From assembly GCA_000381605.1 (NCBI GenBank), contig KB906755.1, positions 248,001 through 312,000 on the forward strand: DNA of 64,000 nucleotides, written 5' to 3'. Under the pieces are notes generated by a model. It ran no database searches. It had not been told where the DNA came from and worked only from the letters and a program-made list of their open reading frames with translations. Shown piece after piece: positions 3,552 to 28,155 of the stretch. The position numbers were made by a program, and so were the translations under genes. Positions within the stretch are counted from its first letter, which is position 1, and every line of letters starts with the position of its first letter. The DNA comes from Acidobacteriaceae bacterium KBS 89 (lineage in GTDB: Bacteria > Acidobacteriota > Terriglobia > Terriglobales > Acidobacteriaceae).

Positions 3552-3552
3552 A

Positions 3553-10416: not shown

Positions 10417-11760
10417 TCAGGCATCGAGATCGGCCACGGTGGTGGGCTTGATTTCTATTGCTCTTTCGAACAGAATTGGGCGGGTTGACTCTTGCTGCAC
10501 CAGTCGTTGCCTGATCCAGTCAACCAGACGGCCCAAGAGGCTGCGTCCCACCCAGGGATTCCGCAGTTGCTGCACCAGATTGGGCTCTTCTGTCGGAATG
10601 TCGACAAAGCTGCTGCTCAAAATGGGATCGGGTGCACCTGGCGCGCTGAGTAATGCCTGCGGAAAATAAGCGATCCGGCTGTTGCCCGTCACGCTCAGAG
10701 TATGCGGCACAGGCTGCTCCTTCAGGTGGGACCAGAAAGCGGCAACTAGGTCCCGGCCTTCGCCCAGTGGCAACGGGCACGGGGGAGTGCACCGCGGATT
10801 CATCTCAATGAGGTATGTTTCGCCAGTGCGCTCTTCGATGACGAAATCGAGGCCGAAAAACCCTGAGAGCCGAAGGCGCCGCGCGATGCGCGCGGCTGCT
10901 CGCATCATTTCGTCGCCGGGAACCACCTCGACGATCGTGGCAGGCCCTGTCGGCCCCTGAGATTGGATGACCTCGACGGCGATCCCCGCCAACAATTCGC
11001 CTTCGCGACAAACAACAGCGCAATTCGCCGGGCGTCCCGAGATGAATGCCTGAGCGATCGCCGCCGGACGCGGACGGCTCCAATCCAGATAGACCCAGCC
11101 GCGGTCACGATTCAGGGACATTCGCTTCATTAACTCAAGCGCCCCGGGTCTACCTGTCAACTCACGGAAGCACTCCCCGGCTTCCGCGAGACTGTAAACC
11201 ACGCGGACGCCTCGGCCTCCCCACGTTCCGTCAGTCTTGAGGACCCAAGGCAGCGGGATCTCGGCGCTCAAATGGTCTAGATCTGAAACTTCTTCAATCC
11301 TATGGATCTTCGGCACTCGGACGCCTTCTTCGAGGGCGATCTGTAGCAGAGCATGGCGATTGGAAACAATAGAAAAGCTCTGCGGCGAACCGAGAGACCG
11401 CTCGATCAGCAGCGAGATCGCGAGCGCCGCGCCGCTTTCTGCCTGACAGGCCACATACAGTTCGTGTAGATGCTGCACGCTGCGATCGCATGCGGGAACA
11501 ATGATGTCCGGACGAAATGTCTCGACGGCCATGCGCAACGAAGACAGCGGCTGAAAACCGCTGTAGGGAAAGATCTGCACGCGCTCGCCGAGACTCTCCA
11601 CGGGATGACCGGGATTGGCGGACAACACTGCCACCTTGGCGCCGAGCCTATCAAACCGCATCGCTAGCCGGGGGACGACGGTCCAGCGATTAGTGTCGGT
11701 CAGAAGGATGCGCGGATTTGCTAATGAATCCCCGCGCGGATTCCGAAGTCTTTCTTGCAT
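10417..11760 (-). CDS. ATP-grasp domain ligase
   Basis: 447 residues. The N-terminal part (RILLTDTNRWTVVPRLAMRF) resembles a pre-ATP-grasp Rossmann domain. The nucleotide-binding loop is VLKTDGTWGGRGVRVV. The metal-binding segment is FGLDFVIEERTGETYLIEMN followed by PRCTPPCPLP. ATP-grasp enzymes activate a carboxylate as acyl-phosphate and join it to an amine or thiol. In an EPS cluster with a uronic-acid dehydrogenase, amide formation on a uronic acid, or ligation of an amino acid, is plausible but unproven. It lies between an FMO-like gene and an RmlC-like gene. Confidence 0.75.
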   Translation of the reverse strand: MQERLRNPRGDSLANPRILLTDTNRWTVVPRLAMRFDRLGAKVAVLSANPGHPVESLGERVQIFPYSGFQPLSSLRMAVETFRPDIIVPACDRSVQHLHELYVACQAESGAALAISLLIERSLGSPQSFSIVSNRHALLQIALEEGVRVPKIHRIEEVSDLDHLSAEIPLPWVLKTDGTWGGRGVRVVYSLAEAGECFRELTGRPGALELMKRMSLNRDRGWVYLDWSRPRPAAIAQAFISGRPANCAVVCREGELLAGIAVEVIQSQGPTGPATIVEVVPGDEMMRAAARIARRLRLSGFFGLDFVIEERTGETYLIEMNPRCTPPCPLPLGEGRDLVAAFWSHLKEQPVPHTLSVTGNSRIAYFPQALLSAPGAPDPILSSSFVDIPTEEPNLVQQLRNPWVGRSLLGRLVDWIRQRLVQQESTRPILFERAIEIKPTTVADLDA

Positions 11761-11795
11761 CTGAATTTCTCTGTCTTTCTTGCTTTTGAATTCTC

Positions 11796-13079
11796 TCAGT
11801 AAGAGGGTGTCAGGTTCGTCGGAAGATCTGGACTGTGCCCATTTTCCCTGCCTTTCAGCAAGGAATGGCCAAGCAAGCGGCCCAGGTGCGAGGAGAGATG
11901 ACGCGCGGCAAAATCGGAGCCGTAGGCAAAACGCATCAATGGACCGAAAGTGCTGGCGGCGCTCACGCCAACGAAATAGAGCCCGGGGACCGAGGATTCG
12001 AAGGTATCGGAGAGAGCGGGTGCTCGTTCGGTGGTCAAAATCCTGACCCGCAAGGCGGGGTCGAGAAATTGCAGGCGCTCCAAGTCGACTCGGTAGCCGG
12101 TGGCTGCAATAACATGGTCGGCCACCGCAGTCTGATTTCCGTTCTGACGGTCGGTCAAGCGCAGGGTGACCTGGTTCTGTTGCACAGTGGCACCCGAGAC
12201 CTCGACTCCGAGATGCAGAGGTACCTTTCCTACGACGCGATCGCGGACAAACCAGCCTGGAGCCGGTCCGAGCGTCTTTCGAAGACGATCAAGCCTGATC
12301 TTTCGCGGCAGAAGCCGGAAAACTCGTGGAGCCTTCACATAGAAAAGCAGTTGCATACCGGCGCCGAGGCCGGTAGTCGGCCGCAAAATGCGATCCCTCA
12401 GAGAGCGAGGCTGAGGCGGATCGTGAAAACGGATGACGGAAGTGCGGGCCACCACCTCTACATTCGCTCCAGCCTCGTGCAGCAAAGCCGCCAAGTCGAG
12501 AGCCGAAGACCCTCCGCCTACCACGATCACGTGCTGGCCGCGAAACTTCTCAACGTCGCTGTGCTCCGAGCTATGGCTGACAAAACCGCGCGGAAGTGTT
12601 GAAAACGGAGCTGGTATGTGCGCGTACGGAACGATGCCCGCGGCGACGATAACGCGGCGTGCAAAGAACGTTTCGCCATTGTCCAGATGCAATTCAAAGC
12701 CGGAGGCAGCTTGACGGATAGAAGCGACTGTCTTTGGTTCCAGAGCCGGCACAAATCGCTTCTGGAACTCGAGCCCATAACTAACGAATGTCTTCACAGG
12801 CACCGGGAGACCAGTGTCCGCGTACGGCAGTCCTCTTTCTTCGCAGAAGCCGCGAAGCGTAAATGCAGAATCCGGGTCTGATAGGGACGACGCAAACCCC
12901 TCCGATTTCAGGTGCATTCCTTTGGGCATCCGTTTCGACCAGGCGCTCATGGGATCACCAAAGATGCGAAACGGAATACCACGCGCACTGAGGTGGGCTG
13001 CGATAGACAGACCATACGGCCCGGCCCCAACTATGGCCACCTCGACGGCGTCAGTGGATGACAAGTTACCTTTCTTCAT
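11796..13079 (-). CDS. Flavin-dependent monooxygenase-like (FMO/lysine N-hydroxylase-like) oxidoreductase
   Basis: 427 residues. The FAD-binding GAGPYGLSIAAHL is at residues ~17-29. The NADPH-binding VVGGGSSALDLAALLHEAG is near 160-180. The ATGYRVD motif of flavin monooxygenases is near 315. This two-Rossmann order matches FMO, Baeyer-Villiger and N-hydroxylating enzymes. The ATG overlaps the upstream glycosyltransferase stop by 4 nt, and the next gene downstream encodes the ATP-grasp protein, so the pair is probably translated together. The substrate is unknown. An N-hydroxylation or sugar/amine oxidation is possible. Confidence 0.75.
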   Translation of the reverse strand: MKKGNLSSTDAVEVAIVGAGPYGLSIAAHLSARGIPFRIFGDPMSAWSKRMPKGMHLKSEGFASSLSDPDSAFTLRGFCEERGLPYADTGLPVPVKTFVSYGLEFQKRFVPALEPKTVASIRQAASGFELHLDNGETFFARRVIVAAGIVPYAHIPAPFSTLPRGFVSHSSEHSDVEKFRGQHVIVVGGGSSALDLAALLHEAGANVEVVARTSVIRFHDPPQPRSLRDRILRPTTGLGAGMQLLFYVKAPRVFRLLPRKIRLDRLRKTLGPAPGWFVRDRVVGKVPLHLGVEVSGATVQQNQVTLRLTDRQNGNQTAVADHVIAATGYRVDLERLQFLDPALRVRILTTERAPALSDTFESSVPGLYFVGVSAASTFGPLMRFAYGSDFAARHLSSHLGRLLGHSLLKGRENGHSPDLPTNLTPSY

Positions 13080-14332
13080 TGTGCGCTCTCAACCTGTTCC
13101 TTTCCCGAGGGTGGGGCGGCCGCGCCCCCTGCAATGTCTGCCCGACCCGTTTTGAAAATGGCTCGGTCATAGGCCTTCAACAGGTTAGGAACAGAAAATT
13201 CCCAAGCGAGTTGGGTTGCGACACGATCGCGCCCCACTCCGCCCATTCTGCTGCGTTCCTCGGGATGGTCGAGGAGCCACAGAATCTTAGCGGCGAAATC
13301 CTCAGCCCCGAGGTCGGCCCGTGCGTAAAGAGAAGCCTCGCCCGCACTGAAGCGTCCTTCTCGGAGATCAAACTGCACGATGGGCTTGCCTAAAGCCATG
13401 TACTCCATCACCTTGATCATCGTGGAGATATCGTTCATCTCGCAGGGCTTGTCGGGATTGACGCAAACATCGGCTGTGGACAGCACTCGCAGCAGATGCT
13501 CGTCCGGGATACGGCCCGTAAAATCCACCGTGTCTGCCAGATTCATTTGCGTGATCATCTGACGCAATCCTGTAAGGCCCGGGCCGCCGCCCACACATGT
13601 GAAATGTACATCGGTACGCCCCGATGCTTTGATACGAGCGGCCACCTCCAGCAGGATCTCGAGCCCGTCCTGTTCACTCATCGTTCCAACATAGCCGACG
13701 AGGAATTTCTTTCCATACCTCAGTGCAGGATCGGGAGGAACTAGACGGAACGTTTCCAGGTCGGGTCCATTGCGCACCACTAGCACGTCGTCCGGCTCCA
13801 TTCCTCCGCGAGACAGCGCCAGGTCTCGATAGCTGGAATTCGTTGCAATGACAACGTCGCTCGCCCGATACGTCAGACGTTCCAGCCAAACCTGAGCCTG
13901 GTAATAAGAGTCCTTTCTTTCATATTTGGAGTGATACAGTTCCGGGCCAGCATCATGTTGATCGAAAATGTACTTCACCCCAAACAGACGGAAGGGAAGA
14001 GCGACTAGAAAGATGTTGTCCGGCGGATTGCAGCCCTGAATCACGTGGAATCCACGCGTAAAAAATATCCACCAGGAAAATAAAAATTCCCAGAACAACG
14101 CACACCCATACTCCCACAGATAACCGAGAGGCCGGTTGGCCTCCTTCGGCATGGGATGTCGGTAGATGTGAATGCCCTCAAGGATTTCATGAGTCTGCCA
14201 ATAGCCCTTGCCCCGCGGACTGAGCACGCTCACTTCGTATCCGTGCTGATGAAGCGCGCGTGCTTCCTTCCACACGCGACTATCGAAGGGTACAGGCAAA
14301 TTTTCAACGATGATCAGTATTTTCTTTCCCAC
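13076..14332 (-). CDS. Glycosyltransferase family 4 (WcaI-like)
   Basis: 418 residues, GTG start with AAGGA about 6 nt upstream. The N-terminus is LIIVENLPVPFDSRVWKEAR, the acceptor-side motif of GT4 enzymes. The C-terminal donor-binding half has VGTMSEQDGLEILLEVA, the E-P-D-E-like segment and VMEYMALGKPIVQFDL. It transfers a sugar from a nucleotide donor to the lipid-linked EPS intermediate in the cytoplasm. It overlaps the FMO-like gene by 4 nt. Confidence 0.85.
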   Translation of the reverse strand: MGKKILIIVENLPVPFDSRVWKEARALHQHGYEVSVLSPRGKGYWQTHEILEGIHIYRHPMPKEANRPLGYLWEYGCALFWEFLFSWWIFFTRGFHVIQGCNPPDNIFLVALPFRLFGVKYIFDQHDAGPELYHSKYERKDSYYQAQVWLERLTYRASDVVIATNSSYRDLALSRGGMEPDDVLVVRNGPDLETFRLVPPDPALRYGKKFLVGYVGTMSEQDGLEILLEVAARIKASGRTDVHFTCVGGGPGLTGLRQMITQMNLADTVDFTGRIPDEHLLRVLSTADVCVNPDKPCEMNDISTMIKVMEYMALGKPIVQFDLREGRFSAGEASLYARADLGAEDFAAKILWLLDHPEERSRMGGVGRDRVATQLAWEFSVPNLLKAYDRAIFKTGRADIAGGAAAPPSGKEQVESAQ

Positions 14333-14341
14333 GGTTGATCC

Positions 14342-15559
14342 TTATATTGCGTTATACAAACCTGCCAGCGCACACAGCATAGTGGCTTGGCCCCAGTGGA
14401 GAGTGGGAGTTTTGTTGACAACCCAGCGTGAATAACGCCGGTAATAAAAGTGACCGTCATGATCCTGCATGTTGTCAATCGTCCACTCGGCGACCTTAAG
14501 AGCCAGCGCGATAGCCTCGTTGTCGTAATCGCGAAAAAAAACGAGTGTATCAATAGCTTGTGAGCAGCACTGGATATCAATCGGAAGTGTCTTGCCATCG
14601 TAGTATCTCGGTGTTCCGTTCGCTAAAAAGAATGTTTCCTTCCAATATCGATAGCCGAGCATCATGTGGCTCGTGAATTGCGTATCCCCGGTACTCTCCG
14701 TGTAGTGCTTGAAGCAATCCAATACATAGGCGGTGTGAAAGTTGTCGACCCAGTGCAGATTCTGCTTTTCGCCGTAGAACCAAGCTCCGTCAGCTCTCTG
14801 ATGCTGCGCCGTATACTGAATTGCCTTGCGCGCCAATTCCAAATACGCCGCATTGCGCGTGATCTTCCATGTGCGCGCGAGGAGGCTGGCGCCCAAAGTA
14901 TTGGCGTTGTGCACCTGACTATTCTTGCCTGGGACATACGCAATACAGGCCGCCTCTCCATCTGGGAATGTCTCTAAGTCGCGCAGAATATGCTCGCAAG
15001 AACTCTGTGCGATTTGAAGATATTCTTGCCGCCCGAAGTGTTCCCAGCCGTCCAGAAACGCATGGCCGATCAGAGAAGTCCAGACCACGGTCGGTGTTCC
15101 GGCTGGGAGGTAAAACGTACGCGATTGATAGTCAAAATGATTCCCCCAGCAGGCTCCGCTATATCCTGGCGACTGATTTTGGATAAGCCACTGTAGCGCC
15201 ATCAGGGCGTGGTCTGCCCAGGCGGGGTCGTCAGTGGCTTCGTGGAGGCGAATGAAGCCCCGGGCCAGAAAGCCCATGCCTTTGGTCGAGCGTTCTCGAG
15301 CTACCCCTAGGAGCGGACGAAGGTTCACCGGGAATCGGCGCATGCCCTGTTGGAGCACTGTCCGCAGCAGGACACTGTTGAATGTCAAGGGACGAACGTA
15401 GCGTGCGTTCAATCCATCGAACGTGTCATAACCACGGTAGTCGTGGATTTCGAGCCAGTGCGACAGCCGCCCTATCGAATCGAGCAGCACGGATTTTGCG
15501 CTTGCAGGCGGATCGGCCGATGCCGGGCTCTCAAGCGTAAGTGAGCGGGCTGCGATCAT
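14342..15559 (-). CDS. Alpha/alpha-toroid (six-hairpin-like) protein of unknown function
   Basis: 405 residues, ATG with GGAAGGG upstream. It is rich in repeating helical hairpins with aromatic residues (ADHALMALQWLIQNQSPGYS, WVDNFHTAYVLDCFKHY, WTIDNMQDHDGHFYYRRYS). These suggest an (alpha/alpha) barrel as in six-hairpin glycosidases and sugar epimerases. No catalytic residue can be assigned with confidence. There is no signal peptide, so it is probably cytoplasmic. Its 5' end overlaps the GDP-mannose dehydrogenase 3' end by ~29 nt, indicating coupled expression. Similar proteins occur in EPS loci, so a role in sugar processing is inferred. Confidence 0.65.
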   Translation of the reverse strand: MIAARSLTLESPASADPPASAKSVLLDSIGRLSHWLEIHDYRGYDTFDGLNARYVRPLTFNSVLLRTVLQQGMRRFPVNLRPLLGVARERSTKGMGFLARGFIRLHEATDDPAWADHALMALQWLIQNQSPGYSGACWGNHFDYQSRTFYLPAGTPTVVWTSLIGHAFLDGWEHFGRQEYLQIAQSSCEHILRDLETFPDGEAACIAYVPGKNSQVHNANTLGASLLARTWKITRNAAYLELARKAIQYTAQHQRADGAWFYGEKQNLHWVDNFHTAYVLDCFKHYTESTGDTQFTSHMMLGYRYWKETFFLANGTPRYYDGKTLPIDIQCCSQAIDTLVFFRDYDNEAIALALKVAEWTIDNMQDHDGHFYYRRYSRWVVNKTPTLHWGQATMLCALAGLYNAI

Positions 15560-16844
15560 ATTTCCCTTCCGGAGTGGTCATTCGGACAAAGTCGATCAAA
15601 CACTGATCTGCGCGGAGTTTCTGCGGCACCTTTTTGAATTCCGGATCGCTGTTGCCGATCACAATGGTCTGCGCCCAAGCCAAAACGTCTTCGGCCTCGG
15701 GAACCATGAGGCGCGAGATGTGGGGAATACGATTGAGAATAAACTCGCGATTGGCGCCCGTCAGCGCGGCGATGTTCACGTTGCGGTCGTAGATGCGGAG
15801 ATCATAGCCCTTGCCGATCAGACGCTCAATCACCTCGATCATCGGGCTCTCGCGCAGATCATCGGTTCCGGCTTTGAAGCTGAATCCAAGAACCCCAATG
15901 CGGGAGTTGCCGGTCTCCATCACCTGCTTTAGGCCGCGCACAATCTGCATCTCGTTACTGGGTAGAACGGAGTTAAGGATCGGGAGTTGCAAATCGTGCA
16001 TGCGCGCCTGGTATGAAAGCGCCCGCAGGTCCTTCGGAAGGCAGGATCCGCCGAAGGCGAATCCAGGGCGTAAATAGGCTGACGAGATATTCAGCTTGCG
16101 GTCTTCGCAAAAAATATCCATCACCTTCTGTGCGTCGATTTCCAACGAGTCGCACAAATTCCCGATCTCGTTGGCGAACCCGATTTTAAGAGCGTGCCAG
16201 CAATTATCAACGTACTTGATCATCTCGGCCGTGTGCAGATCTGTCCGAATGAGCGGCGCGGGAATCGCCTCGTAAAGAGATGCAACCAGGTCGCCGCTGA
16301 GACGGTCCATTTCGCCAATGACGGTCTTTGGGGGCTGCCGGAAATCGGCGACTGCCGTGCCCTCCCTTAGGAATTCGGGATTGTTGCAGACACCGAAATC
16401 CTTTCCGATTTTCTTGGCGGAAAATTCCTCGATAGTTGGAATCACAACCTTGTGCATCGTGCCTGGGAGAATTGTGCTGCGAATCACTACGGTGTGGTAT
16501 GCATCTTTCGTCCGAAGCGCTTCTCCGATCTGCTCACAAATGCGGCGGATGAATCGGAGGTCTAGATCGCCATTGGGTAAGCTGGGTGTGCCGACGCAGA
16601 CGAAAGACAAGTCGGATTCCATAACGGCCTGGAGCGGATCCGTTGTGGCCCGGATCCTGCCGGTCTTTGTGTGCCGGGCGATAATGCCATCAATCTCCGG
16701 TTCAATGATCGGCGAATGTCCTTGATTAATGAAGTCAACCTTGACCTGAACGGGGTCTACACCAACAATTTCATGGCCCTCAACTGCGAAACATCCGGCG
16801 CAAACTGTTCCAACGTATCCCAAACCAAACACACTTATTTTCAC
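15531..16844 (-). CDS. algD: GDP-mannose 6-dehydrogenase (UDP-glucose/GDP-mannose dehydrogenase family)
   Basis: 437 residues from the GTG at 16844, with AAGGA about 7 nt upstream; a TTG at 16850 is too close to that site. The N-terminus ISVFGLGYVGTVCAGCFAVE closely fits AlgD. The catalytic loop FAFGGSCLPKDLRAL contains the active-site Cys and is the GDP-mannose rather than UDP-glucose version. Length matches AlgD (about 436). It oxidises GDP-mannose to GDP-mannuronate with NAD. No alginate polymerase genes (Alg8/Alg44) are present, so the product is probably a precursor for a mannuronate-containing EPS. It is the first gene of the second minus-strand half. Confidence 0.85.
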   Translation of the reverse strand: MKISVFGLGYVGTVCAGCFAVEGHEIVGVDPVQVKVDFINQGHSPIIEPEIDGIIARHTKTGRIRATTDPLQAVMESDLSFVCVGTPSLPNGDLDLRFIRRICEQIGEALRTKDAYHTVVIRSTILPGTMHKVVIPTIEEFSAKKIGKDFGVCNNPEFLREGTAVADFRQPPKTVIGEMDRLSGDLVASLYEAIPAPLIRTDLHTAEMIKYVDNCWHALKIGFANEIGNLCDSLEIDAQKVMDIFCEDRKLNISSAYLRPGFAFGGSCLPKDLRALSYQARMHDLQLPILNSVLPSNEMQIVRGLKQVMETGNSRIGVLGFSFKAGTDDLRESPMIEVIERLIGKGYDLRIYDRNVNIAALTGANREFILNRIPHISRLMVPEAEDVLAWAQTIVIGNSDPEFKKVPQKLRADQCLIDFVRMTTPEGKYDRSPLTYA

Positions 16845-17241
16845 ACTCAATTCCTTTCTCCGCTCGTTGAGCGGAGGGGGCTGTGGGGAAGTAAGAAGAG
16901 AAATCTAGACTCGACCGCGAAGTTGCTTAAGCGCATGTTGGATAGCCACGGGATGCATACTTGAGAATCAGCGTGAAGATCGTTCGATATGAATACTTTA
17001 GCAGTGTTGATGCGGAAGGATTAAGCCTTTGTTTAGCACTGGTGTCGGCGGTCTACAACTTACGTGGTCTGGCATTAAACAGAGGTACAATAGTATCAAG
17101 ACTAAAGTAACGCATTATGCTCCGGATGCTTCAGATGGCCTAGTGTGTTGATCTTGTTTTCCTCGATTGAGGATTGAAGAATTGGCATCAAAAAGGCCGC
17201 GGTTTATGTTTCGTTATTTCAAATCGCATCCAGGAGTTTCC
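16845..17241. other. Divergent intergenic region
   Basis: About 400 bp between the divergently transcribed dehydrogenase and beta-helix genes. It must hold promoters for both. It is A+T-richer than its flanks in the middle. TACAAT near 17087 could be a -10 for the + strand, but no well-placed -35 is visible. No small gene or repeat was found. Confidence 0.5.
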
Positions 17242-19287
17242 ATGAATCACAGGTTTCTTGTATTTCTATTTTTGCTGACTGCGTTTAGTCAGAAGGCCCT
17301 CCCCCAGGCTTGGTCAACGTTTCTCGATCCTTCGCGGGCAATCGACTGGGGGAGCGCTGGTTTCACCATTCCCGCGTACAGCGTGGCCTGCACCACTCAA
17401 CCCTCGCTTTCAACAGGCTCAAGTGCGGCCTCTGCGAATGCGTCATCTATCCAGAACGCCCTCAATTCCTGCGACGCAAGCCATAACGTGGTCAACATCC
17501 CCGCCGGGATATGGTATGTAGCTGGAATTACCTACCCTTCGCACGGAATGCAGGTGCTACGCGGCGCCGGGCCAACAGCAACTAAACTCATCTCGACTGG
17601 GATGGCTGGATGCGAAGGATACAACGCCGGACTTTGCATGATCGATTCCGCTCCGGTGTATTCCGCCAGTCCTGAAGCATTACCCGGCGGATCGAGGGCG
17701 TGCTCTTGGACAGCTGGATATTCTCAAGGAACTAAAACCATTACTTTATCGAATTGCGGCAGCGCTCCTGCCAACAACCAGCTCATCATCCTCGATCAGA
17801 TCGTTGACCAAGCAGACACCGGAGGCGTTTATGCCTGCAACGAAACAACCCCCGCCAGTTGTAACTACGACGGCACTGGTGGAAGTTTCGGACGGCCAAA
17901 TAGAAATCAAACTCAGACAGCCTACGTGACGGGCGTTACTTCTTTGGGCGGCGGTTCGTACACCGTCACCATTGCACCGGGCGTCTACTTCACCAATATT
18001 CAATCCGGCAGAACTCCCGGTGCATGGTGGGCGGGCGGGACGACAACTCTCAACGGTCTGGAAAATCTCTCAATCGACGGAACCTTAGACTCCACCTACA
18101 CGCTGAATATGTACGACTGCTATAGGTGTTGGGTAAAGGGCGTCACTTTTCTCAACGGCGGCAGAGCGTCAGCAGCCATTATGCAAAGCGCGAACGTCGT
18201 GGTTCGAGACTCTTATTTCTATCAGGCGCAGAGTTCAGGAACCTCGGTCAGCTACAACATCGAAACCGAAATAAGTTCCGCCTTCCTCGTAGAAAACAAC
18301 ATCATGCAGCAGAGCGTCCTCCCAATGGTGGTCAACAACGGAACCGGAGGCGTGATCGATTACAACTTTGCCATCAATCAAAAAGCCTTCGCCTCCAACT
18401 ATCTTGGAGGATTGTTTTCTTCACATTCAGGCGGCAATCAATTCAATCTCTATGAAGGCAATAACGTTGGCTCGTTTGTAGCGGACGATGCATGGGGCTC
18501 GACTAATCAGCAAACCTATTTCCGCAATATGCTGAACGGCTGGAAAAACGGGGCCATCGGCGCAACGGCTCCCATTATCCACCGCAGCTACGTCCGTGGC
18601 ATGAACATCATTGGCAACGTCCTCGGCCAGCCGGGATACCACACGCAGTATCAGAGAGTGGCAACCGGCAACACCACAACCAGCGGCGGGTCAAGTGAAA
18701 CCCTCTCTATCTACTCGCTAGGTCAGGCATTTATTGATTCCTGCGGAACCGGAACAGCGCAAACCAGCCCTTTTTGCGACACGCTGACGAACACTACACT
18801 GATGCGCTGGGGGAACTATGACACGGTAAACGCCGCGGTGAAGTGGGATTCAACCGAAGCATCCCCAGGCGCTGTAACCTATCTTTCCGCAAACTTCTCA
18901 AGCGGTTACTTCGGCAGTCTCGCTCACACTCTCCCCGCATCGCTCTACTACTCCTCGCAGCCTTTGTGGTGGCCCTCCGGTAAAGCATGGCCTCCCATTG
19001 GACCTGACGTCTCTACTGGCAACGTGGGAACCTGCACAGGCACTTACTCCGGCGCTCAGGCGACTTCAAGCCAATGTACCGGAGGAACGAAGAACACGGC
19101 ATGGGCCTCACATGTGAACTCTATCCCCGCGCAGGACTGCTTTCTTAACGTGATGCATGGTCCTCCTGACGGGACAGGAAACGTGCTGAATTTTGATGCC
19201 AGCCAGTGCTACGTGTCTTCCGGGTCGACGCCCGGGAACCCCACGCCCCCCCCGCCTCCCACGGCACTTTCGGGGACAGTGATTTAA
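17242..19287 (+). CDS. Secreted right-handed beta-helix (pectate-lyase-like) protein
   Basis: 681 residues from the ATG at 17242, which has AGGAG 5-6 nt upstream and starts a clear signal peptide (hydrophobic stretch FLVFLFLLTAF, likely cut after LPQA). The start of the mature protein has NALNSCDASHNVVNIPAG and GMQVLRGAGPTATKL, the usual entry to pectate-lyase-like beta-helices. Repeated short strands with Asn ladders follow (VVRDSYFYQAQ, AFLVENNIMQQ, VIDYNFAIN). The C-terminus is a proline-rich tail. It is the only + strand gene inside the EPS locus, so a polymer lyase, epimerase or surface-binding role is plausible. Catalytic residues are not identifiable. Confidence 0.75.
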   Translation: MNHRFLVFLFLLTAFSQKALPQAWSTFLDPSRAIDWGSAGFTIPAYSVACTTQPSLSTGSSAASANASSIQNALNSCDASHNVVNIPAGIWYVAGITYPSHGMQVLRGAGPTATKLISTGMAGCEGYNAGLCMIDSAPVYSASPEALPGGSRACSWTAGYSQGTKTITLSNCGSAPANNQLIILDQIVDQADTGGVYACNETTPASCNYDGTGGSFGRPNRNQTQTAYVTGVTSLGGGSYTVTIAPGVYFTNIQSGRTPGAWWAGGTTTLNGLENLSIDGTLDSTYTLNMYDCYRCWVKGVTFLNGGRASAAIMQSANVVVRDSYFYQAQSSGTSVSYNIETEISSAFLVENNIMQQSVLPMVVNNGTGGVIDYNFAINQKAFASNYLGGLFSSHSGGNQFNLYEGNNVGSFVADDAWGSTNQQTYFRNMLNGWKNGAIGATAPIIHRSYVRGMNIIGNVLGQPGYHTQYQRVATGNTTTSGGSSETLSIYSLGQAFIDSCGTGTAQTSPFCDTLTNTTLMRWGNYDTVNAAVKWDSTEASPGAVTYLSANFSSGYFGSLAHTLPASLYYSSQPLWWPSGKAWPPIGPDVSTGNVGTCTGTYSGAQATSSQCTGGTKNTAWASHVNSIPAQDCFLNVMHGPPDGTGNVLNFDASQCYVSSGSTPGNPTPPPPPTALSGTVI

Positions 19288-19313: not shown

Positions 19314-19391
19314 GGGCGAGCGAGGCTTTTCCTCGCCCGCCTGCGAGCCAGCCGGCGGGTCCCACTCCATAGGGGAGTTGCCGGCTGGCTC
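19314..19391. terminator. Bidirectional terminator region with two hairpins
   Basis: Between the convergent beta-helix and flippase genes. The first stem is GCGAGG (19320-19325) / CCTCGC (19331-19336). The second is GAGCCAGCCGGC (19345-19356) / GCCGGCTGGCTC (19380-19391), with an inner ACTCC/GGAGT pairing. The second arm covers the flippase stop codon. A short T-rich run (ATTTGT) follows on the + strand. Confidence 0.65.
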
Positions 19392-20943
19392 ATTTGTATT
19401 CTCCCCCGACCTCGGCCACCGGTCTCGATAGCGGGGTCAATTCTTGCAGAAGACTGGTAAGCTGGCGCAGCGGCGCCAAGCCCCAATGAAGAAGGAGGAC
19501 TGTGCCTAAATAAAGCGTGACAAATAGGATTGAAATGATGACGATTGCCCCTCCCGCAGCGCCCGCGCCTGAAGGCGACTCCCACAGTTGCGTTCGCCGC
19601 ATGATAGCCGCGGTGACGAGGCCAGCTGCCAATGCCGCTGCAGTGTACCGCCAGACAGCGGAAACCAGTGCTGAAACGCGAAATCCGATCGGTCGGCCGG
19701 CATACCAGAAACTGGGAAGCAATAAGGCCCAGTACGAAATGCTCCATGCTGCCGCTATTCCAGAAGGTCCCCATTTCAGCCCTATAAGGAAGGCGAAAAC
19801 CGTCAGAGCCAACGAAACGATGCTCCAGCGGAGCAAGCGCCCTGGCTTGCCTATGGATAAATGGATCCAGCTGACAGTACTACCGAGCAGCATCGCGCCG
19901 ATGCCGGGACCGAACATCTCAAAGATGCTGCCTGCCTCGGACCATTTTGCCCCAAGGACCACTCTCACGACATCCTTACCAACCAGAGTAAGCTCTGCAC
20001 TGGCCGCCATACCCAGCAATGCAACAACTCCCAGGGAACTGGCGAGAGATCGCCTGAAGCGCTCATGATCCTGATGGAGCCGGCTCAAAGCTGCAAGTGC
20101 AACATTGTTCATTGGCGCGGTGAGTTGGCTGGCGGTCAACGCGAACAGATCGAATGCCTTTTTGTAGAAGCCAAGGGCCACCGCGTTGAATCGCCAGCCC
20201 ACCAGAAGATTGTCAATATTCCGTGTGAAATAGGCGACCGTGAACTGCCCATATACCTCCGCTGCAAACCGCACCATCGCGCCCGTTTTGCCGGTGCGTC
20301 GTGGCAGGCTCGGAATCCATGGACACATCATCCAGCCGCCGAGCGTAATGCTGAGCTGTTGCCCGACAATTCCCGCCACGAGTGCCCAATATCCCCAACC
20401 GTGCAGTGCAAGCGCAATGGCGAAAGCTGTGTTGACCGTACGTCCAGTGACATCGTTTATGGACGTGCCGACGAATCGCATAGCTCGCTGCAGGAGAGCC
20501 AAATGAACGACCGATAGCGCTGCAACGAATACGCCCACCGAAAGTCCCTTGCATACATCAGCGACTAAGGGATTTCCGTAGAACTTGGCCAGCAAAGATC
20601 CTGTTGCGGCGAGAGAGACGGCCAGCGCCAGTCCGATTCCTGAGTTGAGCCAAAACAGATTGCTTACTGTTTGGCGGTCAACCTCCTCGAACTGAATGAT
20701 GGCCTCAGTAAACCCGTTGAATCCGCAGCTGACCAACAAAAGGCTCAAAGTGGTGGCCATTGTGACGACCCCAAAATCGGCAGGGGTTAGCAATCGGGCC
20801 AGAATAATGGTACTGACCACTTGGGCAGCAAGGGCTAGTCCTGAGGCCGACACGGTAACGGCCGCCCCGCGCACGGCTAGGCGCCGTATTTCGTGACCTC
20901 CAGCTCTGGGGTGAAAGTTGCCATTGGCGTCAAATGGAATCAT
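19390..20943 (-). CDS. wzx: Polysaccharide flippase (Wzx/MATE superfamily, ExoT/WzxC-like)
   Basis: 517 residues from the ATG at 20943 (GGAG 6 nt upstream; a TTG at 20949 overlaps that site). It is very hydrophobic with about 12-14 membrane segments. The start of the transporter, VSTIILARLLTPADFGVVTM, is the signature of the ExoT/WzxC/polysaccharide_synt group. It moves the undecaprenyl-linked repeat unit across the inner membrane before polymerisation. It is the last gene of the right-hand minus-strand segment. Confidence 0.9.
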   Translation of the reverse strand: MIPFDANGNFHPRAGGHEIRRLAVRGAAVTVSASGLALAAQVVSTIILARLLTPADFGVVTMATTLSLLLVSCGFNGFTEAIIQFEEVDRQTVSNLFWLNSGIGLALAVSLAATGSLLAKFYGNPLVADVCKGLSVGVFVAALSVVHLALLQRAMRFVGTSINDVTGRTVNTAFAIALALHGWGYWALVAGIVGQQLSITLGGWMMCPWIPSLPRRTGKTGAMVRFAAEVYGQFTVAYFTRNIDNLLVGWRFNAVALGFYKKAFDLFALTASQLTAPMNNVALAALSRLHQDHERFRRSLASSLGVVALLGMAASAELTLVGKDVVRVVLGAKWSEAGSIFEMFGPGIGAMLLGSTVSWIHLSIGKPGRLLRWSIVSLALTVFAFLIGLKWGPSGIAAAWSISYWALLLPSFWYAGRPIGFRVSALVSAVWRYTAAALAAGLVTAAIMRRTQLWESPSGAGAAGGAIVIISILFVTLYLGTVLLLHWGLAPLRQLTSLLQELTPLSRPVAEVGGEYK

Positions 20944-21115
20944 TCGCAACTCCAGGACGCCCCACGCGCAATTGCTTTATTTGCAAATCGAACTGCCAAA
21001 GCACATCATGCACCAGGCCAACCTGTTAAAACTTCCGCGATTGTTTGCATATAAATCGTCTTCGTGCTTTAAAGCCGAACCAAAGGTGTTCATGAAAAAC
21101 TCACGGCCGCGTCTC

Positions 21116-23567: not shown

Positions 23568-24956
23568 TCAGTGAGCAGGTACGAGCGGAGACTCTGTTTG
23601 ATGCAACACACGGACTTTTGCATTTTTTTTAACTCCGCTCGCGCCGATGATAGCGAGCAATATGAATACCCAATTTGGACTCATTGTTCTGAATCCAGCT
23701 TCGGTACTGCTGTAAATCACACCGGTAATTATGTACACCAGGAACAGGCTTCCGAGTTCGGCATTACGCTGAAAAGCCCTGCATGCCGCCAGGTAACCGA
23801 TGATTAGGACGATAGCTATTATGCAAACCCCAATCCAGCCTAGATTTAAATACACCTCGATATACCCGTTGTGCGCTTCGTTCAGGCGCTCTGGATGATA
23901 AAAGCCCAACATTTTGAGGTTGTGCTGAAATATCGCCACGTTCGGACTATTCCAGAAGCTATCGAATCCAGTACCAATGATGGGACTCGACACCGCTGGA
24001 AACAGAGATGACCAGATGTCCGTCCGCCCAGAGAAGCTTGAGTCCCTGCCCATGGCGCCCGCGACATCTCCAGTGGCGCCAAAGAATACAGAGATTCCTC
24101 CGAAAGCGAACACCGCTATCCCAAACAGATGCACACGCGAGGGTTGATACCTGACTGCCCGCAGATGCGTCGCTAGCAAGAGCACAGATCCCAGGAGGAA
24201 GCATCCAAGGGACGTTGACGAACGCGCCATGTAGAGTAAAGCGAATCCGAACCCAAGGAGTATGCCCTGTGCCACTAACCGCCGACCGCGGTTAGGCTCG
24301 GTCCGATTCACAAGCAGCCATCGGAAGTTCCATAAGACTCCGAGTGAAATCACGAAGAGGGTGAGGCCGAGCGAATTCTTGTTTGTGGTTACACCGACAG
24401 AATACAAGAGGCCATCGTTATCGTAGGCGCGTCCGGTTTCTGTATAACGAATCAAAAAGAGTGAAAGCGGAAACAAAACGAAACCGACTCTCGAGTAGAG
24501 TCTTCGGATCGCTGCTAGCGGCTCAATATCCGTGAGAACAACCAATACCATGACAACATCGCCCACGTCCTTTATCCAGCGTTTCAGCGAAGGGACGGGC
24601 ACAGGGGACCAGCTTACGCTAATTAGACAATATGCAAAATAGATGATTATTGGCCCCATCACTCCCAGGTAGCGGCGTGACTTCTTCCATCGAGTCAGGA
24701 GGACAATAACACCAATAGCAATCAGCGCCGCGAAGATGGCAGCATCAAATGGGCTCCCTTCCAGGTCCGAATTTGCAGCGTATGTAGGCCCCCCAGTTAG
24801 CCCGAACCACATCGATACAGGCCGCGAGCCAATAAGTCCAACCCAAATGGCCGTTAGCCAAAGCGCATTCGAATTTTGAACAGAATCGTCCTTGTTCAAA
24901 TAGAAAAGGATTGCGATCCCGATAATACAAAGCAGAAAGGCGATTGGCGGCGGCAT
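23568..24956 (-). CDS. wzy: O-antigen ligase/polymerase-like membrane protein (Wzy-like)
   Basis: 462 residues with about 11-12 hydrophobic segments. A large periplasmic loop contains SFSGRTDIWSSLFP and GTGFDSFWN ... EAHNGYIEVYLNLG. This is the characteristic Wzy_C/WaaL pattern (RxxxW and HNxxL-like motifs). It probably polymerises EPS repeat units in the periplasm, with the Wzx flippase two genes downstream and the Wzz regulator upstream in the locus. Ligase and polymerase activities cannot be separated by sequence, but only one such gene is seen. Confidence 0.8.
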   Translation of the reverse strand: MPPPIAFLLCIIGIAILFYLNKDDSVQNSNALWLTAIWVGLIGSRPVSMWFGLTGGPTYAANSDLEGSPFDAAIFAALIAIGVIVLLTRWKKSRRYLGVMGPIIIYFAYCLISVSWSPVPVPSLKRWIKDVGDVVMVLVVLTDIEPLAAIRRLYSRVGFVLFPLSLFLIRYTETGRAYDNDGLLYSVGVTTNKNSLGLTLFVISLGVLWNFRWLLVNRTEPNRGRRLVAQGILLGFGFALLYMARSSTSLGCFLLGSVLLLATHLRAVRYQPSRVHLFGIAVFAFGGISVFFGATGDVAGAMGRDSSFSGRTDIWSSLFPAVSSPIIGTGFDSFWNSPNVAIFQHNLKMLGFYHPERLNEAHNGYIEVYLNLGWIGVCIIAIVLIIGYLAACRAFQRNAELGSLFLVYIITGVIYSSTEAGFRTMSPNWVFILLAIIGASGVKKNAKVRVLHQTESPLVPAH

Positions 24957-25015
24957 TCTAGGCTCTCTCGAAAATTCTACGATCCATCCGGCCCAGACGG
25001 CAGGGTCTAGTGCTT

Positions 25016-26299
25016 TTATGAAGCACGTTTGAGCATTTTCGTGTACACATCCCTCGTCATGCCGGCTACTGTCTCCCAGGAGTGTCCGGCAATAGTAAAG
25101 TCTCGGATCTCCGGACGCCGTTGGGCGAGCTCCCGATACAAATCGCTTTCAAAATATTTCTCAATCGTTTTGGCCAGATCATCTGAATCACATGGCCTGC
25201 AGACAAGGCCAGTTTTGTCCTCAACGATATCGTGTGAAAAAGATCCCACATCTGTTGCTATTACAGGCAGGCCATAATTAAATGCCACGAACAAAATCCC
25301 ACTCTGAAAGATATCTGTGTAGGGCAAAACCGCAACGTCCGCCGCCTTGAAGTACGCCTCGGTTTCGGCGTCCGGGATGAATTGGATCTTTTGCATAATC
25401 TTGTCCCGGCTCGGATGGCTATCGATGGCCTGCTGGATCGATCGCCAGTACTCTTCGTGTCCCTTTTTCCGCTCACCTGCGATAATCAGCCGATAATCTC
25501 CCCGCTCAGCAATCTGTTGAAATGCAGCCACCAAATACTCAAGGCCCTTGTATTGCTTGATCGCACCGAAACAAAGCAGGACCCTCTCGTGATTCTGCAG
25601 TCCGAACTGCTGACGGGCTACTTCACAATTAAGTTCGGTAAATGGCACCGCATTATTGATGCCGTAAGGGATGACGGTGACCTTCTGCGCTCTAACATCG
25701 AAGACGCCGACGAGTTCATCTTTCATCTTCGTTGTGTGGACGAAGATATGATCCGAAAGTGCGTACTGGCACCTTAAAGTGATGCGGTTCAGCCAGGAAT
25801 CGCTTCGATCGCGCTTTCCCGCGTTAATGTTGTGCGCCGTAAAGACGACCTTCTTTCCTCCCAACTTGTAAAACAACATGATTGCCGTTCTATCAAGAAT
25901 CTGAAGTTTGTTATTCCACAGGATGTGAAATACCTTTGGTTTCGCAGTCAATGTAAAGCGAAGTAGACGAGCGTAGAATGCGAGAATTCTGATGATCTTT
26001 TTCGCTGGATTCGCGTGCCTCTGCGTTCCATGCAGATTGTGAAAGCTTGCCCGCGGATTTCCTTTGAACGCCGGCAAGTCGATTTCATCGCCGCCGATTA
26101 CATCCAGCAAGACATTCTGCCCCATCAACGCGGTGCCAAGTCCGACCGTATAATGCGGATCCTGTCCACCCGTCAGCAATGCGATATTTATCGGCGGCAA
26201 GCAACGCGCGCTATCCGCGTAAAGTTGTGTAGGCGCCGGATCGGCGGGCTCGCATGCAACAACTCCTACGCTTCGGTCTCGGCTCGCCCCCGTCTGCAT
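25016..26299 (-). CDS. Glycosyltransferase family 4
   Basis: 427 residues. Its ATG overlaps the upstream AsnB-like stop as TGATG, implying translational coupling. GT4 features: TAHNINAGKRDR near the acceptor site, LLCFGAIKQYKGLEYLVAAF, YRLIIAGERKKG and ADVAVLPYTDIFQSGILFVAFNYGLPVIATDVG. The first ~35 residues are variable, so the true start could be later. It acts on the cytoplasmic face in repeat-unit assembly. Confidence 0.85.
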   Translation of the reverse strand: MQTGASRDRSVGVVACEPADPAPTQLYADSARCLPPINIALLTGGQDPHYTVGLGTALMGQNVLLDVIGGDEIDLPAFKGNPRASFHNLHGTQRHANPAKKIIRILAFYARLLRFTLTAKPKVFHILWNNKLQILDRTAIMLFYKLGGKKVVFTAHNINAGKRDRSDSWLNRITLRCQYALSDHIFVHTTKMKDELVGVFDVRAQKVTVIPYGINNAVPFTELNCEVARQQFGLQNHERVLLCFGAIKQYKGLEYLVAAFQQIAERGDYRLIIAGERKKGHEEYWRSIQQAIDSHPSRDKIMQKIQFIPDAETEAYFKAADVAVLPYTDIFQSGILFVAFNYGLPVIATDVGSFSHDIVEDKTGLVCRPCDSDDLAKTIEKYFESDLYRELAQRRPEIRDFTIAGHSWETVAGMTRDVYTKMLKRAS

Positions 26300-28155
26300 C
26301 AGACTGCCCTTGCGGTCGTTTGGGGAGCGGCTGGCTCAAAGCTCTCGCTCGATTGAGCGTCGAAGAATTGACGAAAAATCAGTTCCATCGTCAGCAGCTT
26401 GTGGATGGCAGTCGTCGAGTTTCGATTGCCTTTAACGTGCCCACTAACCATCGCTTCAACATTCGTACGGTTTAAGAACGGCCGCGAAAGAGTGCGGGGA
26501 TCGAGCAGTGTCTCCTGAATGTAGCCGGCCAGAGCATCGCGGTACCACTCCCGGTAGTGCAGAAATTTATGGCGCCCCAGGAATATTCGGTCCGGGTGTA
26601 GCGGAGCGAACCAATTATTGATCTGCGCTGCCCATTGCGGCATTCCATAGTCGCATGCGTATTCGGCCTTAAACGTGAACTCCCGAAATCCCCGCGACAG
26701 CAGAGATCCGCCCACACCGCGGTCGGATCCGATGCGGCCCAACTCGGGGTTACCGTCGCGAATGAGCCGCAGTCGAACGTCTGCGCTAGATCCGTTGTTT
26801 CGAGGAGCAAGATAAACCATTCGGACAAACTCATTGTCCATAAAGGGCGACCGCACGGTCAGCTGGCTCTGCTCAAGAACCAGGATTCCTTGGTGATACC
26901 AGGGCGACTGGCTAAACGCGGCAAAAGTTACCGGATGCTGCTTCCGCAATGCCGTGTAGGTTTCCCCTGCGACGCGGATATGCTTCAGGAATTCCTCCCT
27001 GAACAGGCCTGGTATCGGTTCCACGGCCTTGAACATAACGGCATGACAAACGATTTCGCTACCGTAGGTCCCTACAATTTTAGCGGGGGCAATCTGGCGT
27101 GCCTTGCTGCTGACGTATAGATCCGAAGCACGGTAGACATCGACGGTGCCTTCTGTTAACCAAATGCTCCGCTCCGCATATCCACCAAACCCATTCAGAA
27201 ATTCCTTCCCAACCTCGATCGTCTGGTAGGGCTGGTCAAGAATACCTGCGATCTTTCGCCCAACTCGGACATCGTAGGAATCGCGTATTGGACCACTGAA
27301 TGTATAACTGGGCAGCGAGCCTGGTGCAGTTGCGTGATTGGAGAGGATCACTCTTGTATCCAGTCCGCCGGTCATTGCGATCCCCAACTGTTGGCGGCCG
27401 GAAAAATACCGAGGCAACACGTTGTTTACTGTTGCGCGAAGCTGCTGGTAGTATCCTTCCGGATCGAGCGCCGACTCCTCCTCCCATTCACTGGGTCGGA
27501 AATAGGTTCGTTTGCCGTTGCAGTGGGTACCGCGAAAGGTCCAGATAGATCCACCAGGTAGCACGTGGATGTCTTTGAAGATCGTCCGGTTTTCCAGAAC
27601 GCAGCTGCAGGCAACAAACTCGCCCAGCCCGCGCGAATCGGCCTCGCGCAAATCTGGCCGAATCGCCAGAATCGCCTTGGCTTCGCCTGCGAAGCAGAAC
27701 TCATCTTTACCCACGTGATAATAGAGTCGGTGCATCCCATAGCGGTCATTGAACAACGTGACCGAATTCTGAGACCGGTCTGCTATCAGGCCATGAAACA
27801 TGCCATTCAGACTGACTACGAACTCCGGATCCTTTTCGCGCATGTTCAGCAAATACCCAGATTCGGGTGCGGAAGAAGAGGAAGGGCATCTTTGCCACTC
27901 CTGTCGAACGGCAGTATCGCTGTAATCTTCTCCCGAAAAGATCAGGCACGTGCCGCTGTTCTCGTTCCTCAGCGGCATTCCGTCGGAGAATGATCCCTTC
28001 AGTGCCGTCCACCCGACGTAAACGCCTAACGACTCGTCCACGAATGTTCCCTGAGAGTAGAACTCTTCGTGGGTGACAGCATCCAGCATCTTCCGCAGCC
28101 GCAGTTCTGCACGTGAGCGAGGTTCTGCCGTAATCAAACCGACAATACATGGCAT
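26299..28155 (-). CDS. AsnB-like (asparagine synthase-related) protein
   Basis: 618 residues. An N-terminal Ntn glutaminase-like domain (about 1-200) includes SLNGMFHGLIADRSQNSVTLFNDRYGMHRLYY. A PP-loop ATP-binding domain follows, with GIAMTGGLDTRVIL in place of the usual SGGLDS. The start reads M-P-C-I-V-G. Residue 2, where the glutaminase nucleophile Cys should be, is Pro; Cys is at residue 3. Authentic glutamine hydrolysis is therefore doubtful, and free ammonia or another amine may be the nucleophile. In EPS loci AsnB relatives amidate uronic acids. It is coupled to the downstream GT4 gene. Confidence 0.8.
   Translation of the reverse strand: MPCIVGLITAEPRSRAELRLRKMLDAVTHEEFYSQGTFVDESLGVYVGWTALKGSFSDGMPLRNENSGTCLIFSGEDYSDTAVRQEWQRCPSSSSAPESGYLLNMREKDPEFVVSLNGMFHGLIADRSQNSVTLFNDRYGMHRLYYHVGKDEFCFAGEAKAILAIRPDLREADSRGLGEFVACSCVLENRTIFKDIHVLPGGSIWTFRGTHCNGKRTYFRPSEWEEESALDPEGYYQQLRATVNNVLPRYFSGRQQLGIAMTGGLDTRVILSNHATAPGSLPSYTFSGPIRDSYDVRVGRKIAGILDQPYQTIEVGKEFLNGFGGYAERSIWLTEGTVDVYRASDLYVSSKARQIAPAKIVGTYGSEIVCHAVMFKAVEPIPGLFREEFLKHIRVAGETYTALRKQHPVTFAAFSQSPWYHQGILVLEQSQLTVRSPFMDNEFVRMVYLAPRNNGSSADVRLRLIRDGNPELGRIGSDRGVGGSLLSRGFREFTFKAEYACDYGMPQWAAQINNWFAPLHPDRIFLGRHKFLHYREWYRDALAGYIQETLLDPRTLSRPFLNRTNVEAMVSGHVKGNRNSTTAIHKLLTMELIFRQFFDAQSSESFEPAAPQTTARAV

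Follow-up and report, generated by a model that had tools for sequence, protein, structure and literature searches.

A polysaccharide locus with five closely coupled genes

The stretch of DNA analyzed here, hereafter the window, comprises 64,000 nucleotides of contig KB906755.1 from Acidobacteriaceae bacterium KBS 89 (assembly GCA_000381605.1, positions 248,001 to 312,000), which is contig 2 of a genome of 6.0 Mb. Judging from its gene content, a single Wzx/Wzy-type polysaccharide locus of a Terriglobia acidobacterium seems to occupy the minus strand from about 40 kb down to 2.9 kb. A first-pass annotation had proposed that the polymer of this exopolysaccharide (EPS) locus carries uronic acids with amide or N-hydroxy-amide groups, and all the genes it named are intact open reading frames (ORFs) on the minus strand (Table 1). 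The present analysis concerns mainly five consecutive genes, encoding an AlgD-like GDP-mannose 6-dehydrogenase, a weakly C5-epimerase-like protein, a GT4 glycosyltransferase, a flavoprotein and an ATP-grasp ligase. In this order, the genes are separated by gaps of -29, 9, -4 and 35 bases: the flavoprotein gene overlaps the GT4 gene by 4 bases, and the ATP-grasp gene begins 35 bases after the flavoprotein gene. Several further glycosyltransferases are also encoded within the locus.

The identification of the first of these proteins as a GDP-mannose 6-dehydrogenase, already made in the first-pass annotation, is well founded. Its best solved relative is the GDP-mannose dehydrogenase from P. aeruginosa (1mfz), matched at 524.5 bits across residues 4-423 of 439, versus 228.3 bits for the next candidate, the best UDP-glucose dehydrogenase structure; in NCBIfam, the subfamily NDP-sugDHase alone exceeds its cut-off. 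From its sequence, the enzyme is predicted to make GDP-D-mannuronic acid. To describe its distribution, a class sample of 399 genomes was used, drawn evenly from a larger group and including the genome of the window, which is omitted from all counts given out of 398. AlgD relatives occur in 108 of these 398 genomes, and the clade to which the AlgD of the window belongs (67-89% identity) in 19; the limit of 67% was chosen after seeing the gap between 67-68% and 56%.

Two companions accompany this clade. The C5-epimerase-like protein, which shows no signal peptide by eye and whose family we take to be of the alpha/alpha toroid type, scores 19.6 bits against PF06662 (D-glucuronyl C5-epimerase), below the gathering cut-off of 23.3, and no PF06662 match was obtained in the window's own genome at E 0.01; in genome G102, two PF06662 members over the cut-off are found elsewhere in the genome. 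Relatives of the protein are present in 12 of the 13 fetched stretches that hold the window's AlgD clade, not always adjacent to it, and relatives of the GT4 glycosyltransferase in all 13. The latter would be a candidate mannuronyltransferase.

Table 1. Genes of the polysaccharide locus in the window, in the order of the minus strand.
Feature	Coordinates	Strand	Basis or remark
Wza-type polysaccharide export protein	39338..40000	-	family match
Three genes, likely chain length control and ATPase	35286-39341	- (locus strand)	
Polyprenyl-phosphate sugar-phosphate transferase, start of the Wzx/Wzy pathway	33959..35173	-	Pfam/NCBIfam
Gfo/Idh dehydrogenase, WbpB-like in kind	32846..33844	-	best NCBIfam match archaeal UDP-GlcNAc 3-dehydrogenase, 163 bits, below the cut-off of 450
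Hexapeptide acetyltransferase, WbpD-like in kind	32343..32849	-	
DegT/DnrJ aminotransferase, WbpE-like in kind	31097..32356	-	
YdjC-family carbohydrate deacetylase-like protein	29287..30117	-	
Possible GNAT/FemAB-like acyltransferase (P0006)	28162..29058	-	weak assignment
AsnB-like protein (P0005)	26299..28155	-	subfamily lacking the glutaminase Cys2
Glycosyltransferase	25016-26299		shares one base with the AsnB-like gene
Wzy/O-antigen ligase-type polymerase	23568..24956	-	
Wzx-type flippase	19390..20949	-	
AlgD-like GDP-mannose 6-dehydrogenase (P0004)	15531..16850	-	predicted product GDP-D-mannuronic acid
Weakly C5-epimerase-like protein (P0003)	14342..15559	-	PF06662
GT4 glycosyltransferase (P0009)	13076..14332	-	candidate mannuronyltransferase
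FAD/NADPH flavoprotein (P0002)	11796..13079	-	predicted fold of N-hydroxylating monooxygenases
ATP-grasp ligase (P0001)	10417..11760	-	predicted carboxylate-amine ligase
CDP-deoxysugar genes, downstream	2901..10358	-	RmlC, glycosyltransferase, glucose-1-P cytidylyltransferase-like, DRL_cat/SAF oxidoreductase, CDP-glucose 4,6-dehydratase, amine-oxidase-like, PIG-L

The flavoprotein and the ATP-grasp ligase

The flavoprotein had been described as FMO/N-hydroxylase-like, and of this double label the N-hydroxylase part was retained while the FMO part was not: the score against the N-hydroxylase family PF13434 (50.5 bits) exceeds the cut-off of 21.3, and that against the FMO-like family PF00743 (18.4 bits) stays below the cut-off of 22. 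Its highest Pfam score belongs to the generic Pyr_redox_3 (91.6), and its best NCBIfam match is YpdA, far below the cut-off. An AlphaFold2 model built from 61 sequences reached a mean pLDDT of 94, and in structural alignments (VIA-align, a match list from which the absence of a family excludes nothing) it was placed closest to PvdA, with Z 35.0 and a root-mean-square deviation (rmsd) of 2.7 for 366 aligned residues. Rows 1 to 16, with Z from 35.0 to 30.6, hold PvdA, KtzI, SsDesB (presumably an N-hydroxylating enzyme), putrescine N-hydroxylase, DfoA and SidA, and the first 13 rows of a Foldseek search with the model were likewise of the N-hydroxylating type. The next structural rows are an FMO (30.6, rmsd 3.8) and YpdA (30.5, 310 residues), tied with the lowest SidA rows. 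Moreover, the cofactor motifs GxGxS[AG] and [AGS]TGY are kept in 61/61 members of the family. As modelled, the flavoprotein has the fold of N-hydroxylating monooxygenases. A role as disulfide reductase, suggested by the YpdA match, was rejected, as CxxC occurs in 2/61 members and no cysteine is invariant; C79, which is 90% conserved, stands single.

Compared to PvdA, KtzI, DesB and SidA, the flavoprotein shares the predicted fold and the cofactor motifs, but it is only 13-18% identical to them in the structural alignments (first 16 rows), and its partner is an ATP-grasp protein, whereas theirs is a siderophore assembly system. That partner matches the ATP-grasp family PF02655 (40.9 bits, cut-off 23.2), its residues K175, D305, E319, N321 and R323 show conservation of 90% or more, up to invariance, among 48 sequences, and the exact string ExNPR is found in 39 of them, so that the ATP-grasp protein named in the first-pass annotation as neighbour of the flavoprotein could be confirmed, with its catalytic residues kept. 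Its model (pLDDT 89.5) resembles PurK, PurT, biotin carboxylase and amino-acid ligases; since enzymes that carboxylate (PurK, biotin carboxylase) are found among these matches next to amino-acid ligases, the fold does not pick a substrate. No TupA family match was obtained at E 0.01. The protein is predicted to be a carboxylate-amine ligase. Structure prediction for both proteins, which the first-pass annotation had put forward as a check, agreed with it, as it gave an N-hydroxylase fold for the one and an ATP-grasp of the PurK/PurT/amino-acid-ligase type for the other.

ATP-grasp amidation of a uronic acid in a capsule has a precedent by analogy in Cj1438C from C. jejuni, a TupA-like ATP-grasp amidoligase that produces the serinol and ethanolamine glucuronamides of the HS:2 capsule (PMC11800379). 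Like the protein of the window, it is an ATP-grasp encoded in a polysaccharide locus, and it amidates the uronic acid carboxyl; however, its TupA-like domain is fused to a glycosyltransferase and the available part of that report mentions no flavoprotein, whereas the fold of P0001 matches PurK-like proteins. A second amidated uronic acid is the glycine amide of 2-acetamido-2-deoxy-guluronic acid (GulNAcA) in the Vibrio cholerae polysaccharide VPS (PMC3901696). According to the accessible text, the cluster likewise includes a UDP-glucose/GDP-mannose dehydrogenase gene and C5 inversion has been proposed, but neither an N-oxygenase nor an ATP-grasp is reported therein.

These precedents, together with the uronamides made by WbpS/WbqG, as far as the sources describe them, are in line with an alternative in which no N-O bond is formed: the ATP-grasp would couple an amine to mannuronate, in the way that Cj1438C amidates glucuronate, giving ordinary uronamides or amino-acid amides, and the flavoprotein would carry out, e.g., S-oxidation or oxidation of an amine carbon. 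The FMO and YpdA folds trail the best N-hydroxylase by less than 5 Z units and equal the lowest ones, and the best NCBIfam match, as said, is YpdA. Nevertheless, the Pfam results separate the protein from FMO-like enzymes, the top 16 structural rows are all N-hydroxylases, and a flavoprotein is present in nearly all genomes with the ATP-grasp (see below), so we regard this alternative as distinctly unlikely.

Distribution of the pair and its association with AlgD

In the class sample, the flavoprotein was called at E 1e-50 and the ATP-grasp at 1e-40 with P0001 as query; several genomes, judging by identical contig positions and lengths, occur under two handles (G102 = G351, G105 = G291, G104 = G161, G018 = G108). 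The ATP-grasp was found in 35 of the 398 genomes, the flavoprotein in 75 and both in 32, meaning that the flavoprotein is present in 32/35 genomes with the ATP-grasp versus 75/398 overall. The ATP-grasp count is low, because the cut-off excludes more diverged ATP-grasps, among them the neighbours of the flavoproteins in loci L051, L053 and L189.

The flavoprotein is also associated with the AlgD clade of the window, occurring in 17/19 genomes that have this clade versus 58/379 of the others (Fisher 1e-11, shared ancestry being ignored); by genus, the figures are 12/12 versus 28/135, own genus included. For other AlgDs, no significant link was observed (17/89 versus 41/290, p 0.17). The possibility that the pair is unrelated to AlgD was rejected for this clade on the basis of the class-wide table. 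In 10 of the 17 genomes, the flavoprotein lies on the same contig as AlgD and within about 35 kb of it, and in 7 on another contig. The GT4, flavoprotein and ATP-grasp genes are consecutive in the window and in G423 (L176), G313 (L186) and G272 (L185), with AlgD about 5 kb further off in G423 and on another contig in G272; the ATP-grasp, flavoprotein and AlgD of G423 are 85-89% identical to those of the window. Furthermore, a second flavoprotein lineage, apart in the tree, is found 2-6 kb from a member of the window's AlgD clade in G062 (L053) and G063 (L051), and in G307 (L189) a 37% identical flavoprotein, which is not part of the tree, lies 3 kb from this clade. As far as sequences can tell, the strongest sign of a functional link is that one AlgD clade has two lineages of the pair next to it.

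Several observations weigh against a coupled pair that acts on mannuronate, however. The Fisher and hypergeometric figures ignore shared ancestry, and 58 of the 75 flavoprotein genomes lack the window's AlgD clade. Among the 32 genomes with both genes, these are within 1.5 kb of each other in 17 and within 7 kb in 4 more, being far apart or on different contigs in 11. G100, G101 and G104 have an EPS locus of the same kind, which comprises genes for Wzx, Wzy, the flavoprotein, the ATP-grasp, an AsnB-like protein with Pro2, and FemAB-like and RmlC-like proteins; the stretches read contain no AlgD. Genome searches gave nothing closer than a 49% identical AlgD, located on another contig, in G100 and G101, and no AlgD at 1e-60 in the whole of G104. 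Moreover, the flavoprotein and ATP-grasp genes of G104 are 3.2 kb apart in the EPS locus, while a second pair adjoins elsewhere. Conversely, the locus of G105/G291 has AlgD, and its pair lies apart, on a contig of 8.7 kb that yielded no EPS gene. From these AlgD-free loci and from G105/G291, it seems that the pair and AlgD have been gained and lost independently of each other within a single family of loci. Where AlgD is missing, the pair must act on a different acceptor, unless it never used mannuronate at all.

From a wider scan with the flavoprotein alignment over one genome per species (84,980 species), the best 80 of 570 confirmed candidates were analyzed. Neighbours were called with home-made hidden Markov models (HMMs), above 25 bits for the ATP-grasp and above 300 bits for AlgD and AsnB, and some of the loci span 3-10 kb. 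The flavoprotein and ATP-grasp genes are less than 600 bases apart in 49/80 loci, and the fetched stretch holds an ATP-grasp gene in 57/80; 24 of the 49 adjoining pairs are in tandem and 25 opposed, the latter all divergent (25/25). These 49 include 12 from Acidobacteriota, 5 from Actinomycetota, 1 from Myxococcales and 30 from Pseudomonadota, many in metagenome bins that may be misassigned. AsnB was detected in 6/80 loci, and on a Bradyrhizobium plasmid the flavoprotein and ATP-grasp genes are located between two AsnB genes of a glycan locus. AlgD was detected in only 1/80, a further point against mannuronate, and a pair specific to AlgD loci was rejected on this basis. At least two polysaccharide genes were found within about 10 kb of 21/84 flavoprotein genes and of 14/52 with an adjoining ATP-grasp, leaving 38/52 adjoining pairs with fewer than two detected, which also speaks against a polymer-bound role; these counts are low estimates, given the home-made HMMs and a number of short contigs. 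The gene-neighbourhood check proposed in the first-pass annotation did show the pair to be widespread, mostly in loci without detected polysaccharide genes; as to the unrelated assigned function that would have argued against its idea, none was found.

This distribution could be explained if the pair made a small diffusible N-hydroxylated amide, e.g., for metal binding or signalling, and the polymer were not a substrate. In line with such a product, and against one fixed to a polymer, no Pfam family occurs in more than 3 of the 77 neighbouring ORFs searched, which come from 21 loci and belong to a set of 129 ORFs (picked by a crude base-composition rule) that flank pairs outside EPS loci. The high fraction of pairs with few detected polysaccharide genes, a pair standing alone on one of two Granulicella tundricola plasmids, and a second pair in the window's own genome (on C4, without detected EPS genes around it) point in the same direction. 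On the other hand, the strong co-occurrence with, and repeated closeness to, one AlgD clade in two flavoprotein lineages, as well as the 4-base overlap of the flavoprotein gene with a glycosyltransferase gene, speak against a diffusible product, and among the 25 Pfam families listed (of 92), the 17 that recur in 2 or 3 neighbours include none with a name referring to iron uptake. Altogether, a diffusible product seems rather unlikely.

Some individual occurrences of the pair and of its flavoprotein are described here in their own right. Each of the Granulicella tundricola plasmids pACIX904 and pACIX902 (L033, L034) carries a flavoprotein/ATP-grasp pair in divergent orientation; one pair stands by itself, with genes for a mobF relaxase and HipA nearby, and the other abuts an EPS operon. 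The second divergent pair of the window genome (G000:C4:378352-380958; L030, L012) is 53% and 39% identical to the first, and no EPS gene was detected around it (L039). In ten Acidobacteria bins (L062, L065, L067, L073, L078, L082, L083, L092, L108 and L112), flavoprotein relatives are found without an adjacent ATP-grasp and, by eye, beside O-acetylhomoserine sulfhydrylase (MetY)-like genes; many of these loci also hold homoserine acyltransferase, AMP-ligase, thiamine pyrophosphate (TPP)-enzyme or carrier-protein genes, likewise by eye, suggesting that the same flavoprotein family serves a different product there. In addition, a conserved cysteine-containing protein is encoded near the flavoprotein in EPS-type and MetY-type loci alike (L055, L058, L060, L062, L064, L082, L083). 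Searches of the literature found no description of a gene cluster combining an N-hydroxylating monooxygenase with an ATP-grasp, and no lead on an ATP-grasp, an FAD oxidoreductase and an asparagine synthase together in EPS.

Amino-sugar genes and the proposed decoration of the polymer

The AsnB-like protein and the FemAB/GNAT-like acyltransferase had been counted in the first-pass annotation among the amide-forming and N-modifying enzymes of the locus. The coupling of the AsnB-like gene to a glycosyltransferase gene was confirmed, the two having one base in common, but an ordinary glutamine amidotransferase it is not. Whereas AsnB enzymes begin with M-C-G, the protein of the window starts M-P-C-I-V-G and its five relatives from other genomes M-P-G-I-V-G, so that Cys2 is replaced by Pro in 6/6 loci of the subfamily (the G423 copy is outside this count); all 8 AsnBs of other flavoprotein loci have M-C-G and SGGxDS. 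The ATP-binding loop is kept in the subfamily as TGGxD(T/S) (TGGLDT in the window), and the protein may activate a carboxylate. With the glutaminase nucleophile lost, the usual transfer of nitrogen from glutamine is closed to it, and the equation of AsnB with a uronamide step does not follow, a point that counts against the first-pass idea. The protein reaches 81.4 bits against the XrtA/WbpS-type TIGR03108, far from the cut-off of 816.9, and its best match in the PDB is a hydroxyamidotransferase (7ylz, 41.9 bits, weak).

The assignment of the acyltransferase is faint. The protein itself gave no Pfam match at E 0.01, no FemAB or GNAT Pfam match at E 1, no NCBIfam match at 0.001, and PDB matches at chance level. 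Among six family members, the GNAT family PF13480 was detected in 3/6 (best E 1.6e-4) and PF02388 in 3/6 (best 0.14), and hhalign of the family against two Pfam-positive FemAB proteins gave 3.9%.

In kind, the genes at 26-34 kb (WbpB/D/E-like, deacetylase, GNAT/FemAB-like and AsnB-like) match the Wbp/Vim pathway described for Porphyromonas gingivalis and Tannerella forsythia; the same source covers the amidotransferases WbpS/WbqG, which make uronamides (PMC7468200, as far as the accessible text goes). It is more likely that the AsnB-like, FemAB/GNAT-like, YdjC and WbpB/D/E-like genes form a separate amino-sugar branch than that they provide a uronamide step. In the strongest version of this idea, all amide chemistry of the locus would reside in that branch: the WbpB/D/E-like enzymes, the deacetylase and the GNAT/FemAB-like transferase would make an N-aminoacyl diamino-sugar, on which the AsnB-like protein would act, and AlgD would supply plain mannuronic acid. 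The gene kinds agree with the published pathway, and a PF00984 dehydrogenase on contig 4 (L003) has UDP-ManNAc and UDP-GlcNAc dehydrogenases as its nearest families, all under cut-off. Nevertheless, AlgD is the sole PF00984 nucleotide-sugar dehydrogenase of the window, which contains no WbpA-type gene as compared with the pathway described in the accessible text; the AsnB-like protein falls far below TIGR03108 and lacks Cys2; the deacetylase is YdjC instead of CE4; and the flavoprotein and the ATP-grasp are left unexplained. We consider this alternative somewhat unlikely.

Two further published systems share components with the locus. The Sphingomonas promonan locus includes an exosortase-associated amidotransferase, and the polymer isolated contains Glc, GlcA and Gal (PMC11340318); the likeness extends to a nucleotide-sugar dehydrogenase, an AsnB-type amidotransferase, a pyridoxal phosphate (PLP) aminotransferase, an acetyltransferase and an MviM-type dehydrogenase, but the available portion of the paper mentions neither an ATP-grasp nor a flavoprotein. 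In Streptomyces, the TsnB6/7/9 cassette produces hydroxamic acids with an AsnB-like enzyme and an N-oxygenase (PMC13418202). The best PDB match of P0005 is also a hydroxyamidotransferase, yet this match is weak and Cys2 is lost, and the N-oxygenase there is annotated as an amidooxygenase with an accessory subunit, not named, in the text available, as a flavoprotein of the type found in the window.

Other features of the locus are as follows. The EPS operon is headed by the export gene and, immediately upstream of it, a NusG-family gene (40083-40715), the latter possibly an operon-specific antiterminator. On the plus strand, opposite the EPS operon, 17167-19287 encodes a right-handed beta-helix-like protein, probably secreted (signal peptide by eye); as its relatives occur both in sister loci that have AlgD and in those that lack it, the protein is not linked to mannuronate. 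Downstream, the genes at 5048-8439 include a CDP-glucose 4,6-dehydratase (TIGR02622, 465 bits, cut-off 278), a cytidylyltransferase-like gene (219 bits, cut-off 300) and an oxidoreductase with SAF and DRL_cat domains (PF21135, 151.5 bits), the DRL_cat domain being, we presume, kin to DXR-like reductoisomerases. By their family matches, a possible, unusual CDP-deoxysugar route would be encoded here; a literature search on CDP-glucose with a SAF domain found no lead. The CDP-sugar genes were rejected as a constant partner of the pair, as L072 has a GDP-mannose dehydratase instead, and L055 other NAD epimerases and a C-methyltransferase. An Rfam scan found one tRNA only.

Altogether, we tentatively favour the explanation that the five coupled genes of this Wzx/Wzy locus are composed of a three-gene mannuronic-acid module (AlgD, the C5-epimerase-like protein and GT4) and a portable two-gene module (the N-hydroxylase-like flavoprotein and the ATP-grasp), the latter recruited to decorate the EPS with mannuronate as the favoured acceptor, even if the whole is somewhat less probable than not. 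The flavoprotein would N-oxygenate a small amine or an amino-acid-like compound, and the ATP-grasp would join this compound through its nitrogen to a carboxylate, the product decorating the repeat unit before export; in the version of the locus found in the window, the mannuronic acid carboxyl would be the favoured acceptor. Taken separately, joint action of the pair as N-oxygenase and amide ligase is slightly favoured by the evidence, while mannuronate as the acceptor in the window's locus is plausible but on balance doubtful. To the points against set out above should be added that the fold alone reveals no substrate of the flavoprotein, and that the amide half of the idea is not new, as amidated uronic acids have already been described in bacterial polysaccharides. 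The polymer with amide or N-modified uronic acids proposed in the first-pass annotation thus keeps part of its ground, in the co-occurrence of the AlgD clade with the flavoprotein (17/19), the predicted fold and the conserved residues, and loses part of it to the wide spread of the pair without AlgD and to the AsnB-like protein without Cys2. As for the polymer being undescribed, this was too broad for the amide, but an N-oxygenated amide on a polysaccharide uronic acid was not found in the literature, including searches for hydroxamates with O-antigen. Two published Granulicella EPS have carboxyl groups and glucuronic acid (PMC5259719); the text available from that paper mentions neither mannuronic acid nor amides, and mannuronic acid was absent from its standards.

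At its boldest, the idea is one of a novel, apparently horizontally shared two-gene hydroxamate module of many soil bacteria, which would operate on its own as well as within EPS loci and which in the window's locus would convert mannuronate into N-hydroxy-amides and yield a polymer-bound, metal-chelating slime; we hold this version to be improbable as it stands. If it were true, polymer-fixed hydroxamates could enable the slime of abundant soil bacteria to capture iron or other metals, and an N-oxygenated uronic amide in a polysaccharide would be new. In addition, the pair itself, present in 32/398 genomes of the class and adjoining in other phyla too, is a clear enzymological target.

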